Source: Paenibacillus sp. W2I17
GTDB lineage: Bacteria; Bacillota; Bacilli; Paenibacillales; Paenibacillaceae
Reading direction: 5' to 3'
Length of the DNA: 64,000 bases
Assembly: GCF_030815985.1 (NCBI RefSeq)
Contig: NZ_JAUSXM010000001.1
Coordinates: 6,262,001 to 6,326,000 of the forward strand
Of this stretch, positions 40,090-64,000 are shown piece after piece (position 1 is the stretch's first letter; every line of letters starts with the position of its first letter). The translations under genes were made by a program, and so were the position numbers. Under the pieces are notes generated by a model. That model did not search any database, was not told where the DNA came from, and saw only the letters and a list, made by a program, of their open reading frames with translations.

Positions 40090-40177
40090 GAGAATGAATC
40101 CTTATCGCAAGATAGGGATATCATCGTGAAGGTGGAAACCTATTAAATATTTGTGAATACATGGCAATAGTGATTGC

Positions 40178-40645
40178 TTGACTCAGGAAGATTATGATAG
40201 TATCGAAGTCAGAGAATATATGGAATATTTACAAAATGTAGGACTTTTTTGTTCCGATTCCTATACTCTTAGGCAAACGTTCGAACAGATTCTGATCACA
40301 GAAATGGTGTCACAAAAATGGATTTTCAAAGATTACATGTCTCACATGGAGGAGGAATCTTTTTTGCAAGAATATCCTGTGGCTTATGATCAGTTTGATA
40401 TTCACTTCTATCAGGTCGTGGAAATGTTTTCTGAACAAAAGCTGGATGTAAGTGCGTTGGATGAGGATTTAAGAGTTCTTGGATTAAACTCCATTTCATT
40501 TATCAAACTGATCATTGCCTTGGAGAACGAATTCAATATTGAGATGGACGATGAGTATCTTGAATTGGAGAACTTCACAACATTGCAACATCTGAAAGAC
40601 AGTTTGCGTAAGTGCATCAATTATGAGATTCCCAATGAGTCATAA
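40178..40645 (+). CDS. Stand-alone acyl carrier protein with N-terminal extension
   Basis: A 155-residue protein whose C-terminal 80 residues form a carrier-protein four-helix bundle. The phosphopantetheine site is the Ser in LGLNSISFIKLI near residue 107. The N-terminal 65 residues are helical and do not match a typical ACP. The TTG start at 40178 lacks a clear ribosome binding site; ATG 40220 is an alternative that would shorten it by 14 residues. It is followed by an acyl-CoA dehydrogenase gene. ACP plus acyl-CoA dehydrogenase pairs supply unusual extender or starter units in PKS/NRPS clusters, so this is probably the left end of the cluster. Confidence 0.78.
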   Translation: MTQEDYDSIEVREYMEYLQNVGLFCSDSYTLRQTFEQILITEMVSQKWIFKDYMSHMEEESFLQEYPVAYDQFDIHFYQVVEMFSEQKLDVSALDEDLRVLGLNSISFIKLIIALENEFNIEMDDEYLELENFTTLQHLKDSLRKCINYEIPNES

Positions 40646-40737
40646 AGGGAAAATGACGAAACAAGCTCATATCAGACAATCACAGCATCGAGTTCCATTT
40701 ATTGGACTTATAACCTCAAAATCAGGAGTGATATGTG

Positions 40738-41935
40738 ATGAAAGTTGAACTGAATGCGGAGCAATTGATGTGGCAGGAACAATTCAAGGATTTTGTAGAC
40801 AGTGAGATTATTCCATATGCTAGTGTAAATGACAGCGAAGAACGAATTCACCCGGAACTCCTTGCGAAAATAACTGAGGCTGGTTATCTGGGCTCCATGT
40901 TGCCAAAAGAATATGGGTGGGATGGAACTGGACAATATCACTATCGGGATTCTTAACGAAGAGGTTGGACGTGGCTGCTCCTCTGTTAGAAGTTTGTTAA
41001 CCGTTCAGGGGATGGTGGGTTTAGCGATCTTGCGTTGGGGAACGGAGCAACAAAGACAGTACTGGTTACCTGCATTAGCTACGGGAACAACTTTGGGTTC
41101 ATTCGGATTGACAGAACCGAGTGTTGGAAGCGATGCCAAAAGCATTGAAACAACGGCCGTATTAGACGGAGACGAATACATACTTAACGGTCATAAAAAA
41201 TGGATAACCATGGGACAGCTTGCAGACGTATTTTTGATTCTTGCCCAATGTGAAAACAAGCCGACAGCGTTTATCGTGGAGAGAGATTCCATTGGGTTCA
41301 GCGTTGAACCTATGAGCGGGTTGCTTGGAGCGAGAGCATCGATGATTGCTGAACTTAAAATGGATTCTTGTCGAATTCCGAAGGAAAACCTCCTGGGTCA
41401 AGTCGGTACAGGGTTATCACATGTTGCTTTACCTTGTCTGGATTATGGAAGATACACGATCGCTTGTGGCTGTGTCGGTTTAGCCAAGGCATGTCTGGAT
41501 GCATCGGTACATTATGCTAATTCCAGAATCCAATTCGGAAGAGCTATACGCGAGAATCAAATGATACAAAAAATGATCACTGAAATGTCAGTGAATATGA
41601 AAGCGGCACGGATGCTGTGTTACAGAGCAGGATATTTAAGAGATGTGGGTGATCCAGAGAGCATTATGGAAACTTGGACTGCCAAATACTTTGCTTCAAC
41701 CATGGTGAATAAAGTTGCCAGTGATGCTGTTCAGATTCATGGTGCCAATGGTTGCCATCGAGACTATCCCGTAGAGAGATATTATCGGGATGCCCGGATC
41801 AATGAAATTATCGAAGGCACGACTCAAATGCATGAGATTTTAATCGCAACACAGGAGGTTGTAACACACCGCCGAGAAATGAGACGTTCAAATAAAGCAG
41901 AAAAAGTTAAGGATGGCGCGAATCGAAACGTTTAG
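40738..41935 (+). pseudogene. Acyl-CoA dehydrogenase, single-base frameshift
   Basis: A flavin-dependent acyl-CoA (or acyl-ACP) dehydrogenase of about 399 residues when the frame is repaired. The start ATG 40738 (or GTG 40735) follows ATCAGGAGTG. The first 60 residues end in LGSMLPKEYG, after which the frame is lost; the rest (GGMELDNITIGILNEEVGRG and onward) is in another frame. Removing one G from the GGG at 40916-40918 gives continuous KEYGGMELDN. FAD and substrate motifs are normal (GSFGLTEPSVGSDA; the late EGTTQMHEILIA). The base Glu region IIEGTT is present. With the adjacent ACP it may oxidise a carrier-bound acyl chain for the assembly line. Confidence 0.85.
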
Positions 41936-41958
41936 ATTTTGCATTGCAGGACCTAAGG

Positions 41959-42016
41959 AAGAGCCCTTTTTTTTGCATTAGGCAGGATCATTCATTATGC
42001 TATGAAAAAAGGGCTT
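41959..42016. repeat. Inverted repeat between dehydrogenase and phosphotransferase genes
   Basis: AGCCCTTTTTT and AAAAAAGGGCT form a perfect inverted repeat separated by about 33 bases. It may act as a terminator or transcript stabiliser. The stem has its T-run inside, not after it, so a standard terminator is doubtful. Confidence 0.4.
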
Positions 42017-42079
42017 GATCATTAGGTTCTTTGATGTTTTACCATAATTGATTTAGGAAAGATACGGAGTTGATTAGGA

Positions 42080-42886
42080 TTGAAACGGATTGGGCAGGGA
42101 CAGACAGCGGAAATATTCAGACATGGTGAAACTTCAATTTTGAAACTCTTCAGAGAAGATTTCTCTGAGGAAGCGATTCAGCATGAGTTTGATAATACTC
42201 GAATCGTTTTGGAACTTGGAGTTAAATGCCCACAAACAATTGATATGGTGACGATCAATAATCGTAAAGGTATCATATTTGAGTTGGCCAGTGGAAGGAC
42301 ACTTTTGGAAGAGATGATTATTAAACCATGGTCCATTGAGCGCAGAGCAAGGCAGATGGCAGCACTTCATCATCAAATACACCAGCAATCAGGTGAACAG
42401 ATTCAACAAAAGCATAAGACTGTATTAGAGAAGAATATATCAAACGCAAGCGATCTATCGGACATGGAGAAGCAACAGATTATGGACTATGTACATAGTT
42501 TGCCGGAAGGCAGATCTCTATGTCATGGGGATTTCCATCCCAATAATGTGATTACAGGCAAAGAATCCTGGATCATAGACTGGATGACAGGCGCATCGGG
42601 CTGTCCAGCAGCAGATGTGGCAAGGACGCTGGTATTATTAAAATACGGAAATTTGCCAAAAGGCACTCCAATGATGATGAAAGTTCTGCTGAAGATAATC
42701 AAAAGCAGGATGAGTAAAGCGTATATCGAGTATTACTTGTCCCTCTCGGGCATGGACATTCGCGAGATACATCGATGGGTTCTTCCCATTGCTGCAGCCA
42801 GACTAACGGAGTGGATACCACCTGAGGAAAAAAAAGATTTATTGGATTACATTCGTAATCAGCTTAAAAAATTCAACACAACTTAG
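42080..42886 (+). CDS. Phosphotransferase (APH) family protein in the cluster
   Basis: A 268-residue aminoglycoside-phosphotransferase-fold kinase. The phosphate-binding region starts at GQGQTAEIFRHG, Lys is in SILKLFRE, the catalytic loop is LCHGDFHPNNVI and the metal motif IIDWMTGASG. The start is TTG 42080 with a weak upstream GGAG. It lies between cluster genes on the same strand. Phosphorylation of the product as self-protection, or of an intermediate, is possible; neither can be shown from sequence. Confidence 0.85.
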   Translation: MKRIGQGQTAEIFRHGETSILKLFREDFSEEAIQHEFDNTRIVLELGVKCPQTIDMVTINNRKGIIFELASGRTLLEEMIIKPWSIERRARQMAALHHQIHQQSGEQIQQKHKTVLEKNISNASDLSDMEKQQIMDYVHSLPEGRSLCHGDFHPNNVITGKESWIIDWMTGASGCPAADVARTLVLLKYGNLPKGTPMMMKVLLKIIKSRMSKAYIEYYLSLSGMDIREIHRWVLPIAAARLTEWIPPEEKKDLLDYIRNQLKKFNTT

Positions 42887-42960
42887 ATCAAGATTTGGAA
42901 TGAATGTATAGCACCGTACTTGTCAAAACCGTCCGAAAAACAATCAGGAGGTTAACGATA

Positions 42961-43767
42961 ATGGATTTCCAACTACGTTCTGTTGTTTCTTATGATATGG
43001 TCGTCCGTGAAAAAAAACATCTATTTGACTTGTCTCTCAGAAGACAGATTGCCATATTTGAGGTTATGGATGCATTGGAAATCAGTGTGTTTAGCAAAAC
43101 GGTGCAGGTTAAGGCAGGGGCTGTGCTGCTGGCAAATAAAATAAGACTGCAAAACTATGATAAACCTGTTCTGAAAATGAGAGGTATTATTTTTGGATCG
43201 GATCTGCTTGAGCGACTGCCAAGCTGTCACATATTAAGTGAGAATGGTAGCAAACACTATGATCTTGCTTTAAGTCTGTTGAACCGAACGGTAGAGAGTA
43301 GAGAAGACATCGAAATAGCTGAAAGAGATTTTCTTGAAGTATACTCCAGTTACTATCAAACGAATCTGGCTAATTTGATGCGACCGGAAACGGATCGGGA
43401 GGACTCGGTCAAACGGAACTTGATCATGATATGCAAGTATATCCAAAACAATTATGAGCAGCCAATTACTCTGCAATTTCTGGCGGATATGGTTGGTTAT
43501 AATCCAGTGTATCTGTGTAATCTGTTTTCTAAGGTTTTCAATGTTTCGCCACTGAAGTACCTACAGCAGATTCGGGTGGATAAGGCACAGGAGTACGTAA
43601 CCAAGACGGATCTTCCAATCTCTGAAATTACAACGAAGTTAGGGTACAGTTCTAGTACACAATTTAGTGCAATGTACAAGAAAAAAGTGGGCAAAACTCC
43701 GACCGAACATCGCAATCAATTCAGAAGCAACAAGGGAAATTTGCCCCTATCTATTCAATCTACATAA
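42961..43767 (+). CDS. AraC family transcriptional regulator
   Basis: A 268-residue regulator. The C-terminal 100 residues hold two helix-turn-helix motifs (ITLQFLADMVGYNPVYLCNLF and ISEITTKLGYSSSTQFSAMY) with the AraC signature. The N-terminal 160 residues form an unassigned sensing domain. CAGGAGGTTAACGATA sets the start at ATG 42961. Its position immediately before the thioesterase and FAAL genes suggests it activates the PKS/NRPS operon. The 76-bp AT-rich spacer after it probably holds the promoter, but I could not fix the boxes. Confidence 0.9.
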   Translation: MDFQLRSVVSYDMVVREKKHLFDLSLRRQIAIFEVMDALEISVFSKTVQVKAGAVLLANKIRLQNYDKPVLKMRGIIFGSDLLERLPSCHILSENGSKHYDLALSLLNRTVESREDIEIAERDFLEVYSSYYQTNLANLMRPETDREDSVKRNLIMICKYIQNNYEQPITLQFLADMVGYNPVYLCNLFSKVFNVSPLKYLQQIRVDKAQEYVTKTDLPISEITTKLGYSSSTQFSAMYKKKVGKTPTEHRNQFRSNKGNLPLSIQST

Positions 43768-43855
43768 TGTATTCAATAACACAGAAAATATTGTATTTTT
43801 TTACGTAAAATGATAAATTACGATAAAAATAAGAATACGAGGAATGATAGGGCTA

Positions 43856-44563
43856 ATGAAGAAAATTCAACTTTTTTGTTTGCCTCATGCAGGTGGGTCA
43901 GCCATGATTTTTCATCGCTGGAAATCATCTTTAAGCCCTTTTATTGACGTAATACCGATCGAATTAAAAGGAAGAGGCGCTCGGGTGGGGGAACCATTCT
44001 ATGAAAGCTTTGAAGAAGCGATTGAAGATATCTACCCCACGGTTTCCTCACTAATTCATGGGCCTTATGCTATTTTCGGACATAGCATGGGAAGCTGGAT
44101 GGCGCTCGAACTATATTACCGACTTGCACAGTCAACGAAACAATTGCCTGAACATATGATGCTTTCAGGCAATCGTGCACCACATATTTTCAAGGATGAG
44201 AATATTCACGCATTGCCAGACGAAGAGTTCAGAGAGACGATTCAGAACATGGGTGGAACGTCGGATGAGGTCTTTACCAATAAAGAGCTCTTTTCGTTAT
44301 TTGCACCTGTACTTAGAGCCGATTTCAGGATTGTCGAACTCTATCGTTTTCAGCCTAAGCCTTTCAAGGTTCAGAGTGATATTACCGTGTTAACTGGCAG
44401 AAGCGATACCCGAGTGAAATCTAGTGATCTGATCGGATGGAAAAAGTACGCTGGTTCACAATGTGACATTGTCAAATTGGATGGAGGACACTTCTATATC
44501 CAGGAAAATATTCAGGAAACAACGAGAATTATAAATGAAAAGCTGCAACCTTATGTAATCTAG
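43856..44563 (+). CDS. Type II thioesterase
   Basis: A 235-residue alpha/beta hydrolase of the GrsT/SrfD type that clears misprimed or stalled acyl groups from carrier domains. The N-terminal motif LFCLPHAGGSAMIFHRW, nucleophile elbow FGHSMGSWMA and the late His in DGGHFYIQE are diagnostic. I prefer ATG 43856, as the family begins close to this point; ATG 43844 is also in frame. It is followed by the FAAL gene after 23 bp. Confidence 0.93.
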   Translation: MKKIQLFCLPHAGGSAMIFHRWKSSLSPFIDVIPIELKGRGARVGEPFYESFEEAIEDIYPTVSSLIHGPYAIFGHSMGSWMALELYYRLAQSTKQLPEHMMLSGNRAPHIFKDENIHALPDEEFRETIQNMGGTSDEVFTNKELFSLFAPVLRADFRIVELYRFQPKPFKVQSDITVLTGRSDTRVKSSDLIGWKKYAGSQCDIVKLDGGHFYIQENIQETTRIINEKLQPYVI

Positions 44564-44586
44564 TTGACAAGGAGTGTGTTCCAGTT

Positions 44587-47151
44587 ATGAGCATGGATAA
44601 CTTGGCTCAATTATTTAACTCCCTTGGTTCAGTCACAGACAGAGGTATTACTTTTCTGAATGGCAGCAAAGAAGAAAAGGTTGTATCGTACCAGTCCCTT
44701 GTGCAATCAGCCAAAATCCGATTAGGAGAGCTTCAAGCATTCGGGATGCAGCCGGGTAATGAATTGATCTTCCAACTGAACTCTGAAGAAGAGTTTATTG
44801 TCACCTTTTGGGCGTGCACGCTTGGAAAAATCATACCGGTTCCGATAACCGTAGGTGGAAATCAGGAGCAAAGAATGAAGCTTTACAATGTGTGGAAAAC
44901 GTTGAACCATCCGTTTATTGCTGCTGATCAGGATCTCACGGAAAGTTTGGACAAGTTTGCCCGGAAGAATGGACTGGAAGAGGTTGTCCGCGAAATGCAT
45001 GCCCGAATCTTTATAGTAGAGGACATCTCGAACTTGCGAGAAGAACCTATTGTTGAGGGAATTGAAGCTAGCATCCAGCCGGATGACATAGCCTTTATCC
45101 AATTTTCTTCAGGTTCTACAGGACAAACCAAGGGTGTAGTAATTAGACACCGCAATGTCATGATAAATATACAAGCTATGAATATAGCAACCCAAATCTC
45201 CTCTAATGACCGTTCTTTGAGTTGGTTACCCCTGACCCATGATATGGGTCTGATTGCGTTTCATCTTACAAGTACCTTCCAAGGTCTGCAACAGTTTATT
45301 ATGCCGACTTCCTTATTCATCCGTCACCCTACATTATGGTTAACCAAAACTTCTGAACACCGTGTCACCCAACTATATGCTCCAAATTTTGCTTATAAAT
45401 ATTTCCTGGATTCATATAATCCACTAACCTTTGCATCAACCGATTTGTCTTCGGTACGTTTTATTATGAACGGTGCTGAGCCGATATCTCCGGCACTTTG
45501 TTTCAATTTTTTGGAGGCGATGAGTCCTTATGGACTGGCTTCCAATACAATGCTGACGGCGTACGGCTTGGCCGAAGCAACCGTTGGTGTTTCCTTTGGT
45601 AACGTCGGTGATTTGACTTGTTATGTACTGGACAGAAGATATTTGGAGAACGGGAAACCATTCATAGAAGCTGAACCGGGCTCAGAACATGCTGTTTCTT
45701 TTGTAGAAGTAGGCAAGCCGGTTCAAAATTGTGATGTACGAATATGTGATGATTATGATAAGCCGGTCGAGGAATTGGTGCTAGGCAGTATTCAAATTAA
45801 AGGATTGAGTGTAACAAGCGGTTATTACAACAATGCGGCAGCTACGGAAAAAGCTAGTACAGCCGATGGATGGATTCGTACTGGAGATATTGGATTTATG
45901 AATGATGGCGCAATAGTCATTACGGGCAGAACCAAGGACATTATATTCATCAATGGTCAAAACGTATATCCGCATGATATTGAACGTGTAACGGAGGAAC
46001 TGGAGCAATTTGATCTGGGGAAAGTCGCTGTATGTGGTGTCTCCAATCCACTTACAGGTTCGGAAAGCGTTGTAATGTTTGTACTGTATAAAAAGGACTT
46101 GCCATCTTTTATTCCAAGAGTTGGAGAAGCCAAAGCACATATTCAGCAGCGGATGGGAATTGAAATCAAGTCCGTACTACCCATTAAGCAAATTCCTAAA
46201 ACGACGAGTGGAAAATTTCAACGTTACAGGCTTCAGGAGCGGTACGAAACAGGAGAATTTAGTGAAATCGAACAATCCATTCAGAGCATGTTAAGCCATA
46301 TGCAGGAGATCAAAGAAGTACAACCAGCTCGTGATCATATTGAACAAAAGCTGATTGAGATTGTTGAGTCCGTAGCGGGACTTAGGAATGTCGGAGTAAC
46401 GGACAATCTGGCTGAAGCTGGATTCGATTCGCTAAAAGTAACGCAGATTCATCAGGCAATCGATGATGCATTTCCAGCCAAAATGGCAATTTCCAGCTTG
46501 TATTCACATACCTCTATTGTCTCATGGGCGAATCTGATCAGACAAGACAGAGTGGAACTGGAGCCTGTACGGATGGATCGGAGCTTTTTCCATACGGATC
46601 GAGGTTACGAAGCCTTGTCGTATCAATTCACTCTCCCAGCTTCATTGGTACAGGATATGCGACTGATTGCACAATCCGAAGCGATCAGTATTCATGTATT
46701 GGCATCAGCTATGTATGCTTACTTGTTACACACTTTGTCAGAACAACCCTCTATTGATATGCACGTATCCTATGGTACAGCGAGAATGATTACACCTGTA
46801 CGATTGAATTTCGATCAATACAAGACAATGAAAGAGCTCTTTCAAAATGTTCATCAACAGATCATAACCATGCCTTCGGATCGAGCGTTTACCGTCGAGC
46901 AGATGAGCCAGATCAGAACAAGCAGCACGGAGTGGGCAGTTATTCCTTTATATGGTGAACAGCATCTGTTCAAGGCATCGGACGATGTACTGAACTATTA
47001 CGATCTGATTATCCTAGTGTCGGACGAAGGTGATACTCTGCAGTGCAATTGTCGTTTTAATGGACGCAAATTAAAACAGAGCCGTGTGAAGCGTCTTATT
47101 GCCAATTATGTGAGAGGACTTCAACTATTGGTACAACCGGAATTGAAATGA
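44587..47151 (+). CDS. Fatty acyl-AMP ligase - carrier protein - half condensation domain
   Basis: Loading protein of the assembly line, 854 residues. Residues 1 to about 560 are a fatty acyl-AMP ligase with FSSGSTGQTKGVV (P-loop), YGLAEATVGVSF and GRTKDIIFINGQNVYPHDIE, the last being typical of FAAL-type adenylation domains. A carrier domain follows with the Ser in EAGFDSLKVTQIH near residue 613. The last 190 residues resemble the C-terminal lobe of a condensation domain, without the catalytic HHxxxDG half. A comparable segment ends the NRPS protein at 62.4-63.0 kb. Activation of a fatty or other carboxylic acid as starter is expected. GACAAGGAGTG precedes ATG 44587. The stop overlaps the next frame. 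Confidence 0.9.
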   Translation: MSMDNLAQLFNSLGSVTDRGITFLNGSKEEKVVSYQSLVQSAKIRLGELQAFGMQPGNELIFQLNSEEEFIVTFWACTLGKIIPVPITVGGNQEQRMKLYNVWKTLNHPFIAADQDLTESLDKFARKNGLEEVVREMHARIFIVEDISNLREEPIVEGIEASIQPDDIAFIQFSSGSTGQTKGVVIRHRNVMINIQAMNIATQISSNDRSLSWLPLTHDMGLIAFHLTSTFQGLQQFIMPTSLFIRHPTLWLTKTSEHRVTQLYAPNFAYKYFLDSYNPLTFASTDLSSVRFIMNGAEPISPALCFNFLEAMSPYGLASNTMLTAYGLAEATVGVSFGNVGDLTCYVLDRRYLENGKPFIEAEPGSEHAVSFVEVGKPVQNCDVRICDDYDKPVEELVLGSIQIKGLSVTSGYYNNAAATEKASTADGWIRTGDIGFMNDGAIVITGRTKDIIFINGQNVYPHDIERVTEELEQFDLGKVAVCGVSNPLTGSESVVMFVLYKKDLPSFIPRVGEAKAHIQQRMGIEIKSVLPIKQIPKTTSGKFQRYRLQERYETGEFSEIEQSIQSMLSHMQEIKEVQPARDHIEQKLIEIVESVAGLRNVGVTDNLAEAGFDSLKVTQIHQAIDDAFPAKMAISSLYSHTSIVSWANLIRQDRVELEPVRMDRSFFHTDRGYEALSYQFTLPASLVQDMRLIAQSEAISIHVLASAMYAYLLHTLSEQPSIDMHVSYGTARMITPVRLNFDQYKTMKELFQNVHQQIITMPSDRAFTVEQMSQIRTSSTEWAVIPLYGEQHLFKASDDVLNYYDLIILVSDEGDTLQCNCRFNGRKLKQSRVKRLIANYVRGLQLLVQPELK

Positions 47152-47171
47152 AATTTCATAGGGGGACGGCC

Positions 47172-50100
47172 ATGCTTGATCAATTGTTCGACAGAGAGCA
47201 ATGGGAAGAAGAAGATGACCAGGACACTTCTATTGAACTGGATATAACAACGGATAATAGACATGATATAGCTGTTATAGGTATCGGTGCGAAGTTGCCG
47301 ACCGGAGAGTCGCTGGATGAATTTTGGAAGATGCTTGATTATGGAATTGATTGCATACGTGAATTGCCCAATCGTCGAAAGGGCCAGTTGGATCAATACT
47401 TGCTTCATAAGCAAGGTTCATTGGAGCATGTACGTTATTTGAACGGAGCTTATCTGGACGAAATCGATGAATTTGATTATTCCTTCTTCCGTATGAGTGC
47501 ACAGGAAGCCAAGCTGATGAGTCCGGTTCAACGATTGTTTTTGCAAACGGTATGGCGTGCGGTTGAGGATGCAGGTTATGGTGGTGACCGTTTGGCCGGA
47601 AGTTCAACAGGGGTGTACGTGGGTGTAATCGGAGATCAAGAAGGTTACAAGTACAAACAGATGGTCGAGGAGTTAAGTCCGGACATGTTACCAATTGCCA
47701 CCGTAGGTAATCTTTCGTCCATCATTCCTGCAAGAATTGCTTATCTACTTAATCTGACGGGGCCGGCTATGGTTGTAGACACAGCATGTTCCTCTTCGCT
47801 GGTTGCTCTGGATATGGCAGTACGTGCGTTACGTGAAGGAAGTTGTGATATGGCTATCGCTGGAGGGATCAGGCTGAATATGATTCCACTGGATAAAGAG
47901 TATTACAAAATCGGTATTGAATCCAGTGATGGAACAACAAGAACCTTTGATGAAGATGCGGATGGATCAGGAACGGGTGAGGGTGTAGTAAGTGTTGTAC
48001 TTAAACCTGTGGAACAGGCATTGCGGGATCATGATCATGTGTATGCAGTCATAAAAGGCACAGCTGTGAATCAGAATGGGTATTCGGCAGGGATCACAAC
48101 TCCCAATGCGGTAGCTCATGAAAAAGTACTGACGCATGCTTGGCGTGATGCTGGAATTCATCCTGAGAGTCTTTCCTATCTGGAAGCACATGGAACAGGT
48201 ACGCTCATTGGGGACCCGATTGAACTGGAAGGAATCCAATCGGCTTTTCGCAGATTTACGGACAAAAAACAATTCTGTGCGATAGGATCGGTTAAGTCCA
48301 ATGTTGGCCATTTGTACGACAGTGCAGGATTAGCGGGTCTGCTGAAGGCGATAATGGCACTCAGATCCAAACGTATTCCCTCTACACTTCATTTTAATAA
48401 GCCCAACCCAAAATTTGAATTTGATAAATCACCAGTCTATGTCAATGTCATTTCAAGAGAGTGGGAAGGAGCGGCCACTCCTCGAAGATGTGGAGTCAGT
48501 TCATTTGGGTTAAGCGGCACCAATTGCCATGTCGTACTGGAAGAAGCTCCGAACATATCAGTGGAATTGGGGCGCGATGACCATTATCCCTTTTTGATCT
48601 CCAGCGTATCATCCGGAAATCTCTCCCGTCAGGTGCAATCATATGTGAAGTGGATCAATGAGAACCCGAAGGCCGATGTGAGGGATGTATGCTGCACAGC
48701 AGCTACTGGAAGACAGCATCATGCACACCGAGCGGTGTGGGTGGTCAGTTCGTTGGATCAATTGCTGCAGCATTTAAACGACTTTCTTGCTGAACCCAAG
48801 ACCGGTAAATATGAACAAGATACATTCAGGAAAAGTAATCAGTTATTCACTACAGAAGAACTTATCTCGAACTGGCATATCGAAGGATACGATAGATCAA
48901 CCGTGCTAGAGGAGTTGTGCACACATTATCAAGGCGGTGCTCAGATCAATTGGTCAAGAATCTATCCAGATGTGACCTATAACAAGTTGAGCTTGCCCAC
49001 ATATTCATTTGAGGAGAGTAAGTGCTGGATTGATACTAACCCCGATAATTCGGTACAGACTGAGGAAGAAGCGATGTATTATTCATTGTCATGGAAGCCT
49101 TGGAGCGAGATCGGCAAGACTAACTCATCCAGCATCCATAATGTTGAACGTGTTTTATTAATGCGAGATGATACACAGCTACATGCAAGCCAGTTGGTGA
49201 ACCAAATTCGTGAAGCTGGAGTAGCAGTTATCGAAGTGATATTGGGAACATCCTACCTTCAACAGGATGCACAGACATATGTAATTCGAAATAACGAGAG
49301 TGATTACATCAAACTTTTGCAGGAAGTGTCCTTTGGAGGGCCCTATCGGATCGTGCATATAGCATCACTTGACCATACAGAAATTAAGGAGAACAGGCTG
49401 GACAAAGGTCTTATGTCTGTATGGAGACTTACCAAGGCATGCTCACACGTCATTGCAGAGCCGGTTGAGATGATTTTGGTGACAAGCTTTGCTAATGATG
49501 TGACGGGTGACGAGAAAGTTCTGTATCCGGAGAATTCGGCGATGCTGGCTTTCGGACAGACGGTACAGCGTGAGATTCAGAATCTCGAATGCTTCTGTTT
49601 AGATGTTGACCAAGATTGGGATACCTCTCAGTATATGCGTTACATTTTGGGGCCGTTGGAGAAGAAGTTTTTGGCGATTAGAAAAGGACAAGCATATCAA
49701 GCTGAATTTGCACCTGCTGATATCTGTTCCATGCCTGATGCTGAGATGAACTGGAAAGAAGACGGCGTATACATTATTACAGGTGGACTTGGTGGTCTGG
49801 GGATGGAGATTGCTGAACGCTTACTGTCATTAGGACGTATGAATCTGGCTTTGATTGCAAGAACGCCACTGCCCAAACGTCACAATTGGGACATCATTCT
49901 AAATGCAAAAAATACTTCACCAGTTCTAAAAAGCAAGCTTCTCCGGTTGCTTGATTTGGAGAAACGGGCCGGACAGATGACGTATCTTGGAGCTGATGTT
50001 GCCGATGCGGATCAGTTAAGTCATGCCATTGAACAATTGAGAAATCGATTTGGTTGTATACGTGGCATCATCCATGCAGCAGGCGTTGGGAGTACACAAC

Positions 50101-51030: not shown

Positions 51031-51043
51031 GGGGACGTGAAGC

Positions 51044-54000: not shown

Positions 54001-57000
54001 ATTAATCAGTGCAGACATCTCCGATCTGGAGCAGATGACTCAGGTTGTGCAGAGGTTGAGAACAAAATATGGACAAATCCATGGGGTAATTAATAGCGCT
54101 GGTGTTGCCAATGATGGCTTGATTATCCGTAAGGAAGAGGCTGCATTCCAAGAGGTTCTGAGACCGAAGGTTCAGGGAACCTGGGTTCTGAATCAAGTAA
54201 CAGCGCAGGAACCACTGGATTTCTTCGTTATGTTTTCTTCTGGCATATCCATGTTAGGCGAACCGGGACAGAGCGATTATGTTGCTGCAAACTGTTTTCT
54301 GGATAGCTTTGCGTCTTACCGTGCAAATGGGTCGGGCCGAACGCTAACCATTAACTGGCCTGCCTGGAAGGAAACCGGGATGGCTGCCAGATTTGGTCTG
54401 AATGTGGATACAGCATTCAAGACATTAGCAACTCATCAAGCGATCAGTGCTTTTGACATGGTATTGAGCCGTCGTATACGCCGAGTGTTGATCGGTGAGC
54501 CCAATTATGCGAGTGAACTCCTACCGTTGTTAGAGTCGTCAAGGGTTATCCGATTCTCGGAAGCCATGACAGTTCGAATTCAACAGGAACGTAATCATTT
54601 GAATTATCATAACAACCAGCTGACGATAACTGAATATGAACAAAAGGTTGAACTGCACGGACGAGATAACGGTATATATACAACTACGGAGAAGGAACTT
54701 GCCCAACTGGTTGGACACGTTCTCGGGTTTACCGGGTTAGATGTATACGACAACTTGTTTGAACTCGGCGTTGATTCAATATCAATGATGCGCATTATTA
54801 CTGAAATACGGGTACGCTACCATGTTCACCTAAACTACCACACGTTCTTTGAAGGTATGAATCTGGCGAAGCTTGCCATTCATCTGATTGGTGCACTCAA
54901 GGAAACTGGAGCGATATCCGAGTATCCCCAGCAAGAGCCGGAACCGGCGACCCTGTATGAGGACTTCCCTTTGACAGAAGTACAGATGGCTTATCTGTTA
55001 GGTCGAGACGAGCGGTTTGAAATGGGGGGAACATCCACTCACTATTATCTGGAATTGGAAACCAAATTGAACATGACGCATTTCCAGACTGCATTGCAAA
55101 AAGTGATTCAGCGCCATCCAATGCTGCGAGCGGTCATATTGCCTGAGGGCATGCAACGAATATTGCCACAGGTACCAGAATATCAACTGGAAATCGTTGA
55201 CGTGTGCCATCTGAATGAGCAGGAAAAGTGGAAACACATTGAGGTGGAACGGGATCGAATGTCCCATCATGTGTTTGAGCCGAGCCAATGGCCGCTGTTT
55301 GAATTCAAAGCTTTTAAAATAGATGATACACGGCATTACCTGTTATTCGGCTATGATCTGCTGATTTGTGATAGTGCGAGTATCCAGATCCTTGGAGAGG
55401 ACCTGGTGCATTATTGCCGTGAGCCAGAAACGGAACTTCCTGCACTGAAGTTTTCGTTCAAGGATTATATGATGGCATACGGAGAACTGAAAAATGGTGA
55501 GATGTACGCACGTGACAGGAAGTACTGGATGGATCAGTTGGACACATTCCCTTCCGCTCCAGCACTTCCGCTGAAGCAGGAACCTAGACATATCAAGAAA
55601 CCACAATTTTCAAGGCTAAGCTGGATATTGGAACAAGATCCGTGGGAGCAATTAAAGCATAAGGCGCAGCAAAAAAATGTAACACCTTCCGCGCTTCTGT
55701 GTACTGCCTTTGCTCGAGTTTTGGCCCGTTGGAGCAATCAGGATCGACTTGCCATCAATCTGGCGGCATTCAACCGCTTTCCATTTCATGAAGAAACCAA
55801 TCAAATTATCGGTGATTTTACATCCATCATGTTGCTCGAAATTAACGAACAAAAAAACAAACCTTTTTGGGAACAAGCAAGAGACGTGCAGAGTGGCATG
55901 CTCAATATGTTGGAACATCGACATTATGACGGCGTGGAGTTCATTCGAGAACTGGCCCGTCATCGAGAAGCGGGTACTTCCGCCATTATGCCGATTGTAT
56001 ATACCAGCACATTATTTGTGGATGCCATTGGAAGCTGGCAGCATATCGGAGATCTGAAAATGGGTATCAGTCAGACCTCCCAAGTCTACCTTGATAATCA
56101 GGTAATGGAGACTGACGGGAGACTGACCATTAACTGGGACTATATTCAGGATCTTTTTCATTACGATACACTTTCCGCCATGTTCGATGATTATACAGCG
56201 ATAATTACTCATCTGTGTGAGCAAGAGAATATCGAGTTTTTACCAGATTTGCCTGAACAGGATAAGGCCATCTGGAATGCATTTAATGCAACAGCACAAT
56301 CATTTCCAATATCTACACTGCATGGGTCTTTTATGGAGCAGGCGACCAAGACTCCTTATCAGACAGCATTGATTTACGGTAATCAGCAAATGACTTACCA
56401 ACAGCTGGATGAACGTTCCAATCAGCTCGCTCATTTTTTGACGCAACAAGGAATAACACGGGGAGACCGGGTGGGGTTGTTAGCCAAACGTGGTATGGAG
56501 ACAATTGTGAATACCATCGGCATTCTCAAAGCAGGAGCGGTATACGTGCCTGTTGATCCCGATTATCCTGAAGATCGTCAGCAATACATTTTACAAAATA
56601 GTAACTGCAAAATGCTGTTATTACCCGAACTTTATACGTTTGAGGGACTGGCTGAATTGCCGGTAGAGCCACTGGAAAATAACGCAGCACCTGACGATCT
56701 TGCCTACATTATTTATACGTCTGGCAGCACGGGAACTCCAAAAGGGGTAGCTACTGCCCATGGCCCGGCAATGAATACCATTCGGGATATCAATATGAAG
56801 TTTGAAGTGACGGATCAAGATCGGATGCTTGGTATCTCTTCAATGTGCTTTGATCTGTCAGTCTATGATATTTTCGGTGCACTTGCGACGGGTGCAGCAC
56901 TTGTGATCATTGCTGACCAGCGTGATATTCATGACATGTACGACGCAATACAACAGCATAAAGTAACCATCTGGAATTCAGTTCCAGCCATTATGCAACT

Positions 57001-60000
57001 GATGGCAGATTACGTAACCGATCAAACCAATGAACAATTAAGACTCATCTTGCTCAGTGGGGACTGGATACCAAAGAAATTGCCAGAGCAAGTACATGGG
57101 CGTTTTCCTTCGGCACAGGTTATCAGCTTGGGAGGTGCGACAGAGGCATCCATTTGGTCTATCTATTATCCCATTGATACTGTCAAGTCTGATTGGAAGA
57201 GCATTCCTTATGGAAGACCACTTGCGAATCAGACATTCTATACGCTTGATTACACGGGGTGCCTGAGCCCAGTCGATGTCATTGGTGAGCTCTGCATCGG
57301 TGGAGCAGGATTGGCTCAAGGGTACTTTAATGATCCGGTGAGGACCGACAATGCATTTTTTAATCATCCGGAATTGGGACGCTTATACCGCACAGGCGAT
57401 TTTGGAGTCTTGCGAAGAGAAGGGTACATTGAATTCCTTGGCAGACGGGATTCCCAAGTGAAAATCAGGGGTTACCGGGTTGAACTTGGAGAAATTGAAA
57501 GCCGATTATCTACAGTTCCTAGCGTGAAGCAGGCTGTCGTTATAGATAAAGTGGACATGCAAGGAACAAAGGTACTGGTAGCCTATTACTCAGCGGAGCG
57601 CAGCTATGACGAATTGGAGATGAAGCGTCTTTTGGCAAAAGCACTTCCGGATTACATGGTTCCTCAGCATTTAATCCAGTTGCCTGAATTTCCACTTACA
57701 CCCAATGGAAAGATTGATCGGAAAGCGTTACCGGAACCAACCTTTGGACAACAGTCCAGTGCACTTGCAGGAACAGAAAGCCAAACGGAGCAAAAGCTGA
57801 TTGAACTCTGTGAATCCGTATTCGGTATGAATGGAATAGGAACTCACGACAGCTTTTTCCAGATGGGGATCAATTCAATTCTAATGGTGCAGCTGGTGAA
57901 TCGGATTGGGCAGGAATTCAATCAACGTCTCAGCTTCAAGGAATTTATGGCCCTGAGAGATATTTATGAACTGGCGGCTCTGCTTGAGAGCTCTGTGGAA
58001 AATGAAGATTCAGTGGGAACAATTCATTATCCGCAGCATGATCCATGCCCTGATCCTGAAGGCCGGCCATTCCCGCTGACCGAGGTACAGATGGCTTATG
58101 TCGCAGGAAGAAGTCAGGCTTTTGAAATGGGGGGCACTTCGACACACGGGTACCTCGAATTCGAAACACAACTGGAGATGACGCGCTTTAATGAAGCACT
58201 AATCAAGCTGATTGAACATCATCCTATGCTGCGGGCAATTATCCTGCCTACCGGAGAGCAACGAATCCTGCCACATGTACCAGTATACCGGATGGATATT
58301 GAAGATATCAGTGGTTTGAGTCCTGACGAGATGGAACGGGTGATCATAGCCGAAAGAGAACGCATGTCTCATCATATTTTTGAATTGGAGCAATGGCCAT
58401 TATTTGAAATACGTGCGAAAAAAAATATCTAAGGATACACATCTGCTGTTGTTTGGATATGATCTGCTTATTGCTGATGGGGCAAGCATACAGATCTTCA
58501 ATAATGATCTACTGAAATTCTATCATCATCCCGAGATTGATCCGGAGCCTAATCCATTTACATTCCGCGATTATATTCTTGCTTACAATGAATTCCGTAA
58601 ATCGAATACGTACCTGGCTGACAAACAATACTGGCTTACCCGAGTAGAGGAGTTCCCAGCAGCACCTGCACTCCCATTGAAGACAGATCCTGCACAGATC
58701 AGCGAGCCAAAATTCAAGCGACTTAATGAAGTGTTTGAACCACAGCGTTGGGAGATATTGAAAAAGATTGCTAATGGACACGGGCTAACACCTTCAGCGC
58801 TTCTCTGTGCAGCCTATGCCCAGATCTTATCGTACTGGAGCAATCAACAGAAGATTGCACTGAACCTGACAGTCTTCAATCGTTATCCATTCCACCCAAG
58901 CATACAGGATATCATTGGGGACTTTACTTCCATGATTTTAATTGATGTGGATATGGCTTCGGGGAATGATTTTATGGGTCATGTGCGTCATGTTCAGGAC
59001 AGTATACTGGAGGCGCTGGAGCACAGGCATTATGAAGGTATCGAATTCATACGTGATCTCTCCAAGCATCATCAAATGGGGAACAAGACCGTAATGCCAA
59101 TTGTCTTCACAAGTATGATCTTTAATGAACGTGAGACAACTGAAGCAACTCAGGGACTGATTGGAAAGGTTCGAACTGGGGTCAGTCAAACATCGCAGGT
59201 ATATCTGGATCATCAGGCTTCGGATGCGGGAGGTCAGCTAACGCTCACCTGGGATTACGTGGATGACTTGTTTGACCAACAGGTGGTCGAAACGATGTTT
59301 GCGCAATATATTGCGCTGTTGGATGGCCTAATTGTGGGAGAAACGATTACGGGGCCTGACATTCCTTCAGTCGATCGCAGCATTTTGGAAAGGTATAACC
59401 AATCAGAAGAAAATATCATGCCAACAACATTGCAACATTTGTTTGATCGTATGGCTAAACATTATCCAGATCAGGATGCATTGTTGTTTGAGGATGAGCG
59501 GATGACCTATTCGGAGCTGGACCGAAGATCCGGTCAACTGGCAGGATATTTACTTGAACAGGAGATCGGGCGAGGGGATCGAGTTGGCGTTGTAGCAAGG
59601 CGCCGCATGGAGACCATTGTAAATGTAATGGCTATACTTCGCACTGGTGCGGCATATGTACCACTTGATCCGGATTATCCTGAAGATCGGCAAGCTTACA
59701 TGCTTAAGAATAGTGATTGCCGAATTGTATTGGACGTGGATGCCTATGATCAGGTCTCGGCTTCAGGTTATCCTCTACTCGAAGGTGAGCCATCTGGAAC
59801 ACCTGATGACATTGCATATGTAATCTATACCTCGGGAAGTACGGGTAGACCGAAGGGCGTTGCCATTACTCATGGGGCTGTAACGAATACGATTCAGGAT
59901 ATGAACAGAAAGTTCGGTGTTCATGAGAAGGATCGCATGCTTGGCGTATCTTCCATGTGTTTCGATTTATCCGTATATGACGTGTTCGGTGCACTTTCCT

Positions 60001-62987
60001 CGGGTGCAGCTCTCGTAATTGTATCCGACCAAAGAGATATCCGAATGATGAAAGAGGCCGTTGATCGCCATCAGGTTACAATCTGGAATTCGGTTCCAGC
60101 GATTATGGATATGTTCATGGATCGCCTGGAATCCGATGCTGGACGAAGCTACCGTTGGGCAAGTGATGAAGAGATTCAGGCGTCAACCCAACTGGCTGTG
60201 GAGAAAGAGTCAGTTGAATCGGTGTACCACTGGTCGTTCTCCACGCTGTGGCGAATGGATGGAAAGCATATCTACGTGGATGAGTTCAAATGCCCTGAAT
60301 ATGCAACAGGTATGTTCCCTGAACTGTATTTCTTGGCACAAAAGGGGATTCGGCAATCCGAGATTGCTTCTTTCTTCCCGAATGTACCTGCTAGTGAAGT
60401 GAATTCGCTCATGGAACTGCTCATTCGCAAACGTGCTTTGGTCAGCGGACTTATGGAGCCAGCGGAAATTTTCAAGAAGCAGACGCAGTTATTCCGCAAT
60501 CCGTATGACGAAAAGGTAGCATACGATGCACAGGCATACGAGGAATTCAAAAAAATACAGTTGCATCGTAATTTCGGTGAGAACACCACACTTGAGGTCT
60601 CACTGGAGCGTGGTGTTGAATATCCTGATTTCATCTCCAAGCGACGTTCTCATCGTTCCTTTAAGGAGGATCAGCCTGTCACCATGAAACAGTTCTCCGA
60701 TCTGATGGGAATACTGGGTCAGTATGATCAAGGACAGGAAATTCGGTATTACTATCCTTCTGCGGGAGGACTATACCCGATAGATGTGTTTGTGTATGTG
60801 AAGGAAGGAAGAGTTGCGGGAATGGAGGCGGGCTTGTACTACTTTAGTCCAGTGGATCACACGGTACGCCTTATTCATGGGAATCAGTCATTCACTGATG
60901 AAATGCACTATTACACAAACAGGTCCATTTATCAGTCTTCAGCGTTTACTGTTTTCTTCATTTACAACGCGGAAGCAACCATGCCGAAATATGGCGCGCA
61001 AGGTTACTTATACTCCCTTATTGATACCGGAATTATGGTATCCACACTAAATAGTGTTGGAGAGATGTTGGGCATTGGGATGTGTTCGATCGGAGATATG
61101 CCTTTTGAGAAAATAAAACCGTTATTCAATTTAAATGAAAATCAGATCTGGCTTCACACGGTGGAAGCAGGATTGAAGCCAGACGATGAAATGGCTTCTA
61201 CGGAAGAATGGAGCAGCAGAAATTATATCAGACAAAATCCAAGCGTATCGGTATCCTATGGCGAAAACCCAATGGCTGCTGACCCAACCCTATTATCGGA
61301 ACGTTCCGTAGCAGTCCTGGGTGCACAGACCGCTCCGCTGGCTAATTTAAATATCCAAAGTTCTGATATAGAAAGAGCAGTAAACATCACCAACGAGGGT
61401 AACCATCCAAGCAGTCTTCGTCTTATACTACTCAGCGGTGACTGGATACCTCTATCGTTACCGGGTAAAGTCAGAAATCTGTGTCCTGATGCAAGCATTG
61501 TGAGTCTCGGTGGTGCAACAGAGGCTAGTATTTGGTCCATTTATTATCCTATTAATTCAATATCTGATGCGTGGAACAGTATCCCTTACGGGTATCCGTT
61601 GGCGAATCAAACATTCCATGTGCTCGATTATAAACTGCGTCCATGTCCGGTTGATGTTCCAGGTGAGATGTTTATCGGCGGAGTAGGTCTTGCACATCAA
61701 TATGTGAATGACTTGGATAAAACGGAGAAAGCATTTATTCAGCATCCGCTTCTTGGTCGATTGTATAGAACGGGAGACCATGGCGTCATGCGCAAAGAGG
61801 GATACATTGAATTTTTGGGCAGAAAGGACAACCAGATCAAAATCAGGGGGCATCGCGTGGAACTTGGTGAAATTGAAGCGATATTCATTCAGCACCACGC
61901 CTTGAAGCGTGTGTATGTAATGGACAGGCAGAACGAGCAAAAGAAAAAATATCTGTGTGCCTATTATGTCTCTGATCAAGAAGTTTCCATTGCTGAATTG
62001 CGAGAGTTTCTGATATCCAGATTGCCGGAGTACATGGTGCCTTCATTCTTTATCCGGTTGGAAGCTATCCCTCTAACAGCGAATGGAAAAATCAATCGTA
62101 ATGCATTACCTGAACCAACAGCTCTACACACCGCTCAGGTCCAGTACAAGGCTCCCGCCAATGATATTGAGAAACAATTGGTACAGATATGGAGCGAAGT
62201 ACTTGGCAATGCTCACATTGGTGTGAATCAGCATTTCTTTGAGATCGGCGGCGATTCTGTTCTGATGATCAAGGCACATGCCAGACTTGATGACCAATAT
62301 CCGGGAATTGTGAAAATAACCGACATGTTTAATTTGCCAACTATTTCGGATATTACCGCATTTATCGAGAATCAGTTGGAAGAGATGGATGTAATCCATG
62401 TATCCCGCTCCCGCATTCCCTTGTCCATGGATTATTTCGTGGAAGGAGATTCAACATCAAACGAAACAGAAGAGTTGCAGTTTGCCATATCAGCAGAACT
62501 CTATGATCGTGTGGTGAATGCTGCCAGCAGGTGGGACGTCGAGGTGGATGATATTTTATTTGCCGGCTTTGCGTACCTTCTCGCACAGACCTCCAACAGT
62601 GATCGGATGAGTATGCATGCAGCCATTGGGCAGTCCGATTATATTCAAGTATTTGATCTGGACTTTGGCTCGTTGGAACAATTTAATGAATTATTCCAGC
62701 TTATCCATCAATCCAAGGATCAAGATGGCAGGGAGACATTCCACACCAAGCATGTTAGTACCCTTTTACAGGAACCCGGTACTGGAACATTACCTTTGTT
62801 CTATAACGCTGGTGCAGTTGCTTCGGGAGTGCCGGTGTCTGAACTGTACGACTTAACGTTACAAGTGGTTCATCAGGAGGACAGCCTGCACTTTGTATGT
62901 GGATTCCGTTCAATGAAATGGCGGAAGAGCAAGGTCGAGTCACTCTTGCAACTCTACTTTAAACTACTGAACCCGATACTCGAATGA
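51044..62987 (+). CDS. Hybrid PKS-NRPS: KS-KR-ACP-Cy-A-PCP-Cy-A(Ox)-PCP-half C (one frameshift)
   Basis: A giant protein of about 3980 residues when the frame is repaired. GTG 51044 follows AGGGGGACG. Order: KS (DTACSSSL near 208), KR (AGGTGGIGLQ near 912; Tyr in DYVAANCF), ACP (GVDSIS near 1242), Cy1 (DLLICDSAS near 1438), A1 (about 1760-2230), PCP1 (GINSIL near 2275), Cy2 (DLLIADGAS), A2 carrying an FMN oxidase insert (60136-61405), PCP2 (GGDSVLMI), and a final half condensation lobe. Both A domains give the ten-residue code DLYNLSLIWK, known for cysteine. The break is one extra A in the A8 run at 58420-58427; the two frames are 51044-58432 and 58380-62987. Two thiazoline/thiazole rings are predicted, with the Ox domain oxidising one or both. 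Confidence 0.9.
56320..57735 (+). other. Adenylation domain A1, predicted Cys
   Basis: Uninterrupted A domain. Core motifs: A3 YTSGSTGTPKGV, A4 MCFDLSVYD, A5 LGGATEASIWS, A8 QVKIRGYRVELGEIE, A10 NGKIDRKAL. The segment between A4 and A5 is only the short ADYVTDQTNEQ linker. Pocket residues read D, L, Y (A4 region), N (WNSVPA), L, S (LILLSGDW), L, I, W (A5 region) and K (A10). Confidence 0.85.
60136..61405 (+). other. FMN oxidase (Ox) domain inserted in A2 between motifs A4 and A5
   Basis: A2 runs like A1 as far as TIWNSVPAIMDMFMDRLE and resumes at SLRLILLSGDWIP. The 420 residues between are foreign to an A domain. The second half is a nitroreductase-fold dehydrogenase of the McbC/SagB type, with RRSHRSFKE, YYYPSAGGLYPIDVFVYV, GLYYFSPVDHTVRLI and LGIGMCSIGD. 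The first 130 residues look like the winged-helix-type N-terminal part that SagB-type proteins carry. Such domains oxidise thiazoline to thiazole using FMN. Confidence 0.85.
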
Positions 62988-63015
62988 TCTCAAGCCGACT
63001 GTAAAGGAGAGCAAA

Positions 63016-64000
63016 ATGAGAAAAGGATTAATGGGAAGTATTAAACTGGATGATCTCCTGGAATCCGGGGCAGAATCGGTCGATATCGAAAGTGTTTCGA
63101 CTAAGGACATTGCCATTATTGGAATGTCCGGCAGATTCCCGGGTGCAGAGGAACTCGAGGCATATTGGAGCAATCTGGTTAACGGTGTGGACAGTATCAG
63201 CGATTTTCCCGCAGAACGACAATCTTTCACAGATTATTATATGAAGACACGGGGAGAGTCGGTCGCGTATACCAAAGCAGGTTTTTTGAAACATATTGAC
63301 CGATTCGATTATCGTTTCTTCAACCTGTCTCCCCGTGAAGCTTCTCTCATGGACCCCAATCAGCGGTTGTTTCTTGAAACGGCTTGGCACGCCATTGAGA
63401 ATTCGGGATATGGAGGCGGGAAACTTAAAGGAAGCAACACAGGTGTGTACGTTGGGTTTCGTAACGATGAAGTATATGACTACAAAAGATTAATCACTGA
63501 CTTGGAACCGCAGGCAGATCCCAGTGCAGTTCCAGGTAATCTGGCCTCCATTCTGGCTAGCCGGATTTCTTACTTGCTGGATCTGAAGGGGCCGAGCCTT
63601 TGTCTTGATACAGCATGTTCATCTTCTCTCGTAGCCATCCATCTCGCGTCCCAGGCCATTCGAAACGGGGATTGTGATCTGGCTGTCGCTGGTGGCGTCA
63701 AGATACGTTTGTTTCCCCTGGATGAAGGGAACAAGCTTGGTGTGGAAGCGCCAGATGGCAAAGTGAAGGCGTTCGATGCAGATTCGGATGGGACGGTGTG
63801 GGGTGAAGGCGCTGCCGCTATTATCCTCAAACCTTTGAACAAAGCACTCAGGGATCGAGACCATATTTACGCAGTCATCAAAGGAAGTGCTGTGAATCAG
63901 GATGGAACTTCCGTAGGCATCACAGCGCCCAATACCGCTTCACAGACAGATTTGCTGGTGAAAGCATGGAAAAATGCGGGGATTAACCCGGAGACGCTAA
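63016..64000 (+). CDS. Polyketide synthase, N-terminal KS, 3' partial
   Basis: Starts at ATG 63016 after AAAGGAGAGCAAA and runs open to the right edge (about 328 residues visible). A 30-residue N-terminal segment precedes the KS core: IAIIGMSGRFPGAEELEAYW, SPREASLMDPNQRLFLETAW and the active-site Cys in LDTACSSSLVA. The KS His residues lie beyond the window. It is the next protein of the line and should extend the thiazole-bearing chain. The N-terminal stretch before the KS may be a docking element. Confidence 0.92.
   Translation, partial: MRKGLMGSIKLDDLLESGAESVDIESVSTKDIAIIGMSGRFPGAEELEAYWSNLVNGVDSISDFPAERQSFTDYYMKTRGESVAYTKAGFLKHIDRFDYRFFNLSPREASLMDPNQRLFLETAWHAIENSGYGGGKLKGSNTGVYVGFRNDEVYDYKRLITDLEPQADPSAVPGNLASILASRISYLLDLKGPSLCLDTACSSSLVAIHLASQAIRNGDCDLAVAGGVKIRLFPLDEGNKLGVEAPDGKVKAFDADSDGTVWGEGAAAIILKPLNKALRDRDHIYAVIKGSAVNQDGTSVGITAPNTASQTDLLVKAWKNAGINPETL

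Follow-up and report, generated by a model that had tools for sequence, protein, structure and literature searches.

A trans-AT polyketide-peptide island of Paenibacillus with a FAAL start, a predicted bithiazole block and lone condensation lobes as candidate docking elements

The zwittermicin A line of Bacillus cereus is a PKS/NRPS hybrid that uses hydroxymalonyl carried on a loose ACP and possesses ATs for ACP-bound units (PMC4207774), and in its hybrid make-up and predicted extender supply the island described here resembles it. NRPSs in which an RRE-like-Ox didomain is embedded number 13 in one report, with a similar insertion point throughout and with linkers taken from Paenibacillus tianmuensis and Bacillus pseudomycoides (PMC8795117). 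Four-helix bundles and DHD represent the two key docking classes of trans-AT lines, a lone condensation lobe not being among those named in the consulted portion of PMC9113145. Additionally, trans-AT families without assignment are present in Paenibacillus (PMC7930024), and Paenibacillus sp. EDO6, a strain near P. xylanexedens, contains two novel trans-AT hybrids, clusters 12 and 13 (PMC7789753).

The island examined here is located in the 7.0 Mb, single-contig genome of a soil Paenibacillus (G000), and was approached from a window of 64,000 nucleotides, the whole stretch that was analysed, whose base 1 corresponds to C1:6,262,001; coordinates above 64,000 refer to the same contig past the window end. 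The cluster is real, conserved and uncharacterised, a trans-AT FAAL/bithiazole/polyol line that constitutes a further member of a familiar class and is probably broken in this strain. An initial reading of the window from its letters (the sequence-only reading) had recognised about the first half of the cluster, which runs from 40,077 to near 90,019. It had not noticed the frame breaks, the membership of the loose ACP and the dehydrogenase in a hydroxymalonyl cassette, four further ketide modules, the Gly/BtrH end or the lone lobes.

Borders, spread and frame breaks of the island

Flank alignment to genome G041 places the island at 40,077 to about 90,019 (G000:C1 about 6,302,077-6,352,019; ~50 kb), of which 40077..64000 falls inside the window, and all of its genes, from the loose ACP to a 341 aa protein, are on the plus strand. 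The site is empty in G041, where only 37 bases separate the left flank, aligned as far as 40,076, from the right flank, which resumes at 90,020, and is occupied by 2.6 kb of other DNA in G068. The cluster is carried by six of 75 genus genomes: G033, G067, G003 and G029 align across 40.1-90.06 kb at about 97% identity, and G037 holds a copy that is about 80% identical. The island was probably gained by lateral transfer. Among 394 family genomes, the Cy-A(Ox) protein was matched at E 1e-180 or better in eight, these being the six carriers together with G172 and G258, which share with it solely the Cy-A stretch (49%). The Cy-A pair of G258 suggested kinship, yet seed searches found no KS there, while G172 possesses KS-KR, one Cy-A and Ox but in a different order, and neither was retained as a relative of the line. 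In the plasmid collection all FAAL matches were less than 60% identical, the best (37% over 97% of the query) being from Niallia taxi. A GNAT gene at 39652-40089 was considered as a self-resistance gene of the cluster and rejected, since it is a common gene of the genus (52 of 75 genomes, six of these with the cluster) and the island begins just behind it.

Four island genes have broken frames in the window genome, namely those for the acyl-CoA dehydrogenase, the first PKS (split 1099+204 aa), the PKS-NRPS (split 2462+1535 aa, cut within the second Cy) and 3HCDH, while four relatives encode each of them in one frame, of 399, 1290-1292, 3980 and 286 aa, respectively. The domain order given by the sequence-only reading stands, with the correction that the dehydrogenase, the first PKS and the PKS-NRPS are not single open frames here. 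The window copy differs from each of the four relatives by the same five coding length differences that are not multiples of three (a pair in the first PKS and a single one in each of the acyl-CoA dehydrogenase, the PKS-NRPS and 3HCDH); two more shared length differences fall between genes. Since four genes are frame-broken, the assembly line is probably inactive in the window genome, unless the breaks are sequencing errors and the line is intact after all. Such errors are a serious possibility that falls somewhat short of even, as two of the five coding differences sit in runs of six and eight equal bases, yet the remaining three sit in runs of three or four. Furthermore, many ORFs of the upstream region have the same length as in G003 (14 by hand reading of the list), and the other giant synthase genes of the window genome are open (frames of 3968 and 1409 aa), which argues against frequent read error. 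The window copy may thus be decaying, though read error could also account for its state. In the G037 copy PKS4 is split and the FAAL is short with its start missing; intact copies of the cluster exist in relatives of the window genome.

Gene order and predicted chemistry of the line

The island opens with a stand-alone ACP (40178..40645), whose PP-binding match occupies residues 81-139 of the mechanical ORF, so that the actual start is probably internal to it. The acyl-CoA dehydrogenase of the extender cassette (40735..41935, in two frames here) is followed by an APH-family phosphotransferase (42080..42886) with a possible role in self-protection or tailoring, an AraC-family regulator (42904..43767) and a type II thioesterase (43844..44563, with a GHSMG motif), and Pfam thereby recovered all the accessory genes that the window had been said to contain. 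The starter protein (44587..47151) consists of a FAAL, an ACP and the first lone C-terminal condensation lobe (46549..47148, from profile comparisons). Its order, AMP-binding then PP-binding by Pfam at the very start of the line, is that of a FAAL-initiated line; the best NCBIfam family of the FAAL is NF006624 (fatty acyl-AMP ligase), at 335.9 bits and below the whole-protein cut-off of 600. Ketide module 1 (KS-KR-ACP, 47148..51040) is encoded by two overlapping ORFs (47148-50447 and 50426-51040). The next gene (51044..58432) carries ketide module 2 (KS-KR-ACP), Cy-A-PCP with a Cys code and the start of the second Cy, the remainder of which is encoded at 58380..62987, together with an A domain that has a Cys code and an FMN-type oxidase inside it, a PCP and, at the NRPS-to-PKS handover, the second lone lobe (62397..62984, from lobe profile comparisons). 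A 2581 aa KS-KR-ACP-KS-KR-ACP protein (63,016-70,761, with 63016..64000 in the window) and a KS-KR-ACP-KS-KR-ACP-C protein (70,739-79,732) come next. These are followed by 3HCDH (family match, from 79,751), a second loose ACP (about 80,648, taken from the reading frame rather than a family scan), FkbH (80,862-82,010), a free AT of 424 aa (82,041-83,315), two ABC transporter genes, a half-C-A-PCP-BtrH protein (85,289-88,975) and the 341 aa protein (88,968-89,993), for which the Pfam scan gave no family. A BtrH-like nature of this last protein was discarded, as a profile comparison with the BtrH domain was negative (probability 0.2%; model pLDDT 47).

In total the line comprises six KS-KR-ACP modules, two Cy-A-PCP modules, a C domain and, at its end, an A-PCP that reads Gly and is joined to a domain of the BtrH type. 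Every domain listed in the sequence-only reading, from FAAL-carrier to the further KS, was found by Pfam, and the modules it expected outside the window materialised as four more ketide modules in total, the line ending near 90.0 kb. The active-site Cys, His and His are present in all six KSs, a YxAAN motif in all six KRs and the Ser in the carriers, while the C domain reads HHLVTDG and both Cy domains retain DxxxxD; with motifs intact in the six KSs, the six KRs, both Cys and the C domain, the domain set is confirmed as real and far beyond chance. Pfam identified no AT domain in any of the six KS-KR-ACP modules (window PKS ORFs and 64,000-79,732), and the trans-AT assignment was supported, as modules past the window end also proved free of an in-cis AT. 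No methyltransferase, DH or ER families were detected in the island proteins scanned. In the Gly protein, the BtrH_N match includes one Cys, one His and one Asp that are conserved in all three aligned copies, and a catalytic role for this Cys-His-Asp set may be surmised.

The A-domain codes were extracted by hand from alignments, using position rules of the GrsA structure and code-to-amino-acid assignments (Cys, Gly, Lys-like). Both Cys-type A domains have the code DLYNLSLIW, in agreement with the two adjacent thiazol(in)e units that had been proposed from the window, and the last A domain has DILQMGMIW, near the Gly code DILQLGLIW. The oxidase within the second Cys-type A domain is of the nitroreductase type by Pfam, and two consecutive Cy-A(Cys)-PCP modules with an Ox constitute a predicted bithiazole-forming block; the bithiazole modules of colibactin likewise combine Cys-reading heterocyclisation with an FMN oxidase.

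The order of work was deduced from the order of genes and domains, and substrates and product are predicted accordingly from the codes and families. First, the FAAL would adenylate an acyl starter and load it onto its own ACP, whereupon two KS-KR modules would add two beta-hydroxy ketide units. Two Cy-A-PCP modules would then add and cyclise two Cys residues, and the inserted oxidase would convert one or both thiazolines to thiazoles. Four further KS-KR modules would contribute four beta-hydroxy ketide units, and the C domain would couple the chain to Gly on the last PCP, from which the BtrH-type Cys-His-Asp domain would release it, probably onto an amine or water. A single free AT would supply all modules, and FkbH, 3HCDH, the acyl-CoA dehydrogenase and the loose ACP would produce hydroxymalonyl-ACP, so that an extra hydroxyl is expected on some units. 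At the two FAAL/NRPS-to-PKS handovers the lobe on the carrier protein would dock with the KS protein that follows, at its short N-terminus, PKS-to-PKS handovers being mediated by ordinary helical docking segments. We consider this scheme as a whole, lobe docking included, to be probable. The product predicted for the cluster is a polyhydroxylated bithiazole, so far unreported, that starts with an acyl group and ends in glycine.

Related lines with the same ending are found in G005, G036 and G053, and G051 was assigned to them by FkbH and lobe hits alone. The sister line comprises a carrier-lobe protein, six KS-KR modules, C, 3HCDH, acyl-CoA dehydrogenase, FkbH, AT and half-C-A-BtrH, and seed searches of G005, G036 and G053 found neither a FAAL nor Cys modules. 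In G053 a KAS III gene and an ACP-lobe protein precede the first PKS. The last A domain of the sister lines has the Lys-like code DTESIGTVC. In the KS tree, in which 7 of 23 inner branches are supported and which holds no named reference KSs, the island KSs form a loose group with further AT-less KSs, and very long branches lead to the two KSs that the genome encodes in another cluster. The island's final KS clusters with its counterparts at the end of the G053 and G036 lines (support 95/88), and this grouping together with the content of the sister lines suggests that the island represents the sister backbone to which a FAAL start and a bithiazole block were added.

The extender set is complete for hydroxymalonyl-ACP, with FkbH (TIGR01686 of NCBIfam, 278.5 bits against a cut-off of 146.65), 3HCDH, acyl-CoA dehydrogenase and two loose ACPs, and lacks an O-methyltransferase; its dehydrogenase and 3HCDH are among the genes frame-broken in the window genome. 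It was identified against the full zwittermicin hydroxymalonyl gene set, and by this analogy FkbH, 3HCDH, acyl-CoA dehydrogenase and ACP would form a cassette of the zwittermicin kind. The free AT was located, as the sequence-only reading had advised, by extending to the right: of five AT matches in the genome it is the sole one within the island, 18 kb past the window end, and is of the FabD type (274.8 bits against a cut-off of 260.9). Its motif is GHSMG, and GHSxG is typical of CoA-using ATs, in contrast to the GYSxG of both ACP-unit ATs of zwittermicin (PMC4207774), which the free AT does not have. A hand alignment, however, shows Q-V-T where CoA-using ATs carry the R/K of the carrier-recognition motif, and this R/K is also missing in the two ACP-using zwittermicin ATs (PMC4207774). 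As GHSMG resembles CoA-using ATs, yet the R/K is replaced, the evidence on specificity is split, and the AT may transfer hydroxymalonyl from ACP. Were malonyl alone used at all six modules, as the GHSMG motif would permit, the cassette would serve a tailoring step or another pathway. This alternative is somewhat unlikely, given the Q-V-T replacement, the unbroken cassette genes in four relatives and the recurrence of the cassette in sister clusters with the same ending.

Lone condensation lobes at the handovers

Residues 655-854 of the FAAL protein match condensation domains in their C-terminal half alone. Searched by profile against solved structures, this segment obtained six hits within E 10, each of them the condensation part of an NRPS chain (best E 0.00098, the rest 0.06-0.66), and in a profile-profile comparison with the island's own C domain the lobe aligned to residues 199-417 (probability 92%). 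The lobe at the NRPS end matched the FAAL lobe at 98%, while on its own it obtained no condensation hit in two profile searches and a weak one in Pfam. A structure predicted for the lobe with moderate confidence (pLDDT 64) points the same way, as nearly all of its best 50 PDB rows were, by title, NRPS condensation, cyclisation or epimerisation chains. Neither lobe is a full condensation domain, both covering the C-terminal part of the profile alone; the Gly protein opens with a different, longer half-C that is above the Pfam cut-off. Both window lobes match Pfam below the curated cut-off, the match being weaker again for the lobe of G053 and absent for that of G030, and it is for this reason that the lone lobe escapes routine annotation.

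To follow its spread, a lobe profile (A9) was built from eight lobes, including those of the island, G053, G030 and Niallia. With E 1e-10 as the limit, it matched in 105 of 394 family genomes and in 82 of 392 sampled across the order, the two sets overlapping and at most eight candidates being scored per genome. We inspected 56 lobe loci, 36 from the profile searches and 20 weaker ones hand-picked down the rest of the family list; these are not all independent, since six of the 36 are island copies and four are sisters. All 56 loci show a match to a carrier profile immediately ahead of the lobe, and the lobe ends within 25 residues of the protein end in 55, the exception being a partial match with 84 residues left. 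A strict HHxxxDG was absent from the 260 residues before the lobe in every case (0/56), and a looser form of the pattern occurred in one of the 20 weaker loci. The gene after the lobe gene starts with a KS in 31 of 56 loci and with an AT in 14; in the other 11 it has no assignment or falls outside the stretch. Of the 56 loci, 42 have a KS-start ORF somewhere downstream in the same orientation, and in the remaining 14 the stretch covered contains none.

It is conceivable that such lobes are dead remnants of full condensation domains, left by recombination of NRPS and PKS genes and without a role in handover. Their lack of an N-lobe and of HHxxxDG in all 56 loci would suit this explanation, as would an identity to the FAAL lobe that falls to 15-25% among members of the profile alignment. 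Remnants would nevertheless be expected to decay and scatter, whereas placement at the C-terminus behind a carrier is kept in 56 of 56 loci and the profile recurs in more than a hundred family genomes, and we regard this explanation as improbable.

The proteins downstream of the lobe provide a further argument against it. In the island, a helix-turn-helix-like segment of the kind seen in trans-AT docking opens the two proteins that follow an ordinary ACP (starting at 51,044 and 70,739), and a matching segment closes the partner upstream of each, a typing done by eye. The two proteins behind a lobe (47,148 and 63,016) are without such a segment, and no four-helix-bundle docking pair was found at lobe-fed junctions. 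Across the collection, the helical docking pattern occurred in none of 42 KS starts downstream of a lobe, compared with 11 of 11 KS starts that are not lobe-fed; the pattern was defined after the sequences were inspected and the 42 include near-duplicates. The 11 controls came from G000, G005, G036, G053 and G172, with starts that were cut or had more than 120 residues before the KS filtered out, and one G016 ORF that is without the helical pattern and whose feeder was not established was omitted. A short hydrophobic pattern was present in 21 of 28 lobe-fed KS starts and in 4 of 11 controls; shuffling of the former gave a mean of 14.0, and 2 of 1000 shuffles attained 21. As the pattern was chosen post hoc from the data it is a lead and suggestive at most.

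The position of the lobe was read directly from the proteins, and from it, together with the lack of helical segments on the KS proteins downstream, we infer that the lobe may be a docking element at the FAAL/NRPS-to-PKS handovers. The wider proposal is one we hold to be evenly balanced: that assembly lines of the Bacillales type make general use of a lone C-terminal lobe from the condensation superfamily for docking. Placed at the end of FAAL-ACP, starter ACP and NRPS PCP proteins, this lobe would capture a short linear motif located N-terminally in the following AT-less KS protein, and would stand in for the four-helix bundle that serves from PKS to PKS. Condensation domains bind carriers, and every examined lobe is directly behind one, so that the lobe might instead be a gate or a carrier-orienting surface, for example by holding the acyl chain or excluding hydrolysis, rather than a passive dock. 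This seems unlikely, as the lobe is without a known catalytic motif and the missing helical segments on downstream KS proteins point to docking. If the lobe is indeed a docking element, it would explain how peptide and fatty-acid starter proteins locate a ketosynthase in AT-less lines, and would offer engineers a new coupling part.

Comparison with known systems

No product or close characterised cluster was identified among the matches listed in the open-access literature, in keeping with the sequence-only reading, which had not recognised the order from any characterised pathway. The zwittermicin A line differs from the island in that its hydroxymalonyl AT is in cis (ZmaA-AT), and the consulted portion of its description mentions no FAAL, Cy or thiazole modules (PMC4207774). 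Bleomycin BlmIV/BlmIII shares the Cys-reading heterocyclisation modules and an FMN oxidase that lead to a bithiazole, although the Ox of BlmIII is placed after the PCP (PMC8795117). The NRPSs with an embedded RRE-like-Ox share an oxidase inside the A domain and a Bacillales origin, the likeness being drawn at the level of the A domain (PMC8795117).

Regarding the lobe, a search of open-access literature on truncated, partial, half or incomplete condensation domains returned no lone C-terminal lobe like that of the island among the matches listed, which is weak evidence of novelty. None appears in the consulted part of a C-domain review (PMC11546977), and a truncated or partial condensation domain is mentioned in passing in PMC9600693. 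The palmerolide line has a 133-residue terminal condensation domain, which was rejected as a counterpart since it is reported to keep much of the HH motif and is thus different (PMC8739492).

Cluster 13 of Paenibacillus sp. EDO6 shares with the island its trans-AT nature, four PKS genes and one hybrid gene and was called novel, and its similarity to pellasoren could reflect the extender cassette, but it is almost 35 kb in size and is reported to contain a DHt domain (PMC7789753). Compared by description alone, EDO6 may carry the same cluster type (PMC7789753). Finally, the docking domains of trans-AT lines share with the lobe a position at subunit ends and a part in intersubunit handover (PMC9113145), and beside them the lone condensation lobe looks like a new, seemingly overlooked coupling part of the line.

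Boundaries of the island

The left junction of the FAAL-started trans-AT PKS/NRPS island, at window coordinate 40,076 behind a GNAT gene, was compared in three genomes (G041, G051 and G068). The site is empty in G041, and in G068 it is filled by a different stretch of DNA, 2.6 kb long; it may be a recurrent insertion point. Towards the opposite end of the island, past the window on the same contig, a 341 aa protein (88,968-89,993) had no family found in Pfam, and displays 83-99% identity across the three relatives compared.

A BtrH-type domain at the end of the NRPS

The NRPS encoded at window coordinates 85,289-88,975 (L007:11289-14975) carries a BtrH-type papain-like domain fused to its end, in which one Cys, one His and one Asp are conserved. 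This terminal domain is a candidate for an unusual release step.

Related loci in W2I17 and in other genomes

Further FAAL loci were observed in the W2I17 genome itself. A second cluster (G000:C1 6,580,000-6,607,000; loci L009, L010 and L093) contains FAAL-KS, a free AT, FkbH, 3HCDH and acyl-CoA dehydrogenase, as well as a synthase with its AT in cis. Additionally, a 3968 aa synthase with FAAL adjoins another free AT (G000:C1 402,400-405,900; L012), and relatives carry frames similar to it in length.

The lobe, the lone C-terminal half of a condensation domain, was also observed behind an Ox-interrupted A domain (G429:C41:97206-97772; L138) in a genome from another family of the same order as the host. 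On the Niallia taxi megaplasmid pMEGANia, a cluster around 1,213,500-1,225,200 (L046), present without gene annotation in the plasmid collection, is ordered TE, FAAL-ACP-lobe and AT, followed by a KS protein that includes an FkbH-like part. The sister clusters (G005 C1 2,068,000-2,104,000, split into many frames, and homologous regions in G036 and G053) start with carrier-lobe, continue with six KS-KR modules and end in BtrH; their A code is Lys-like.
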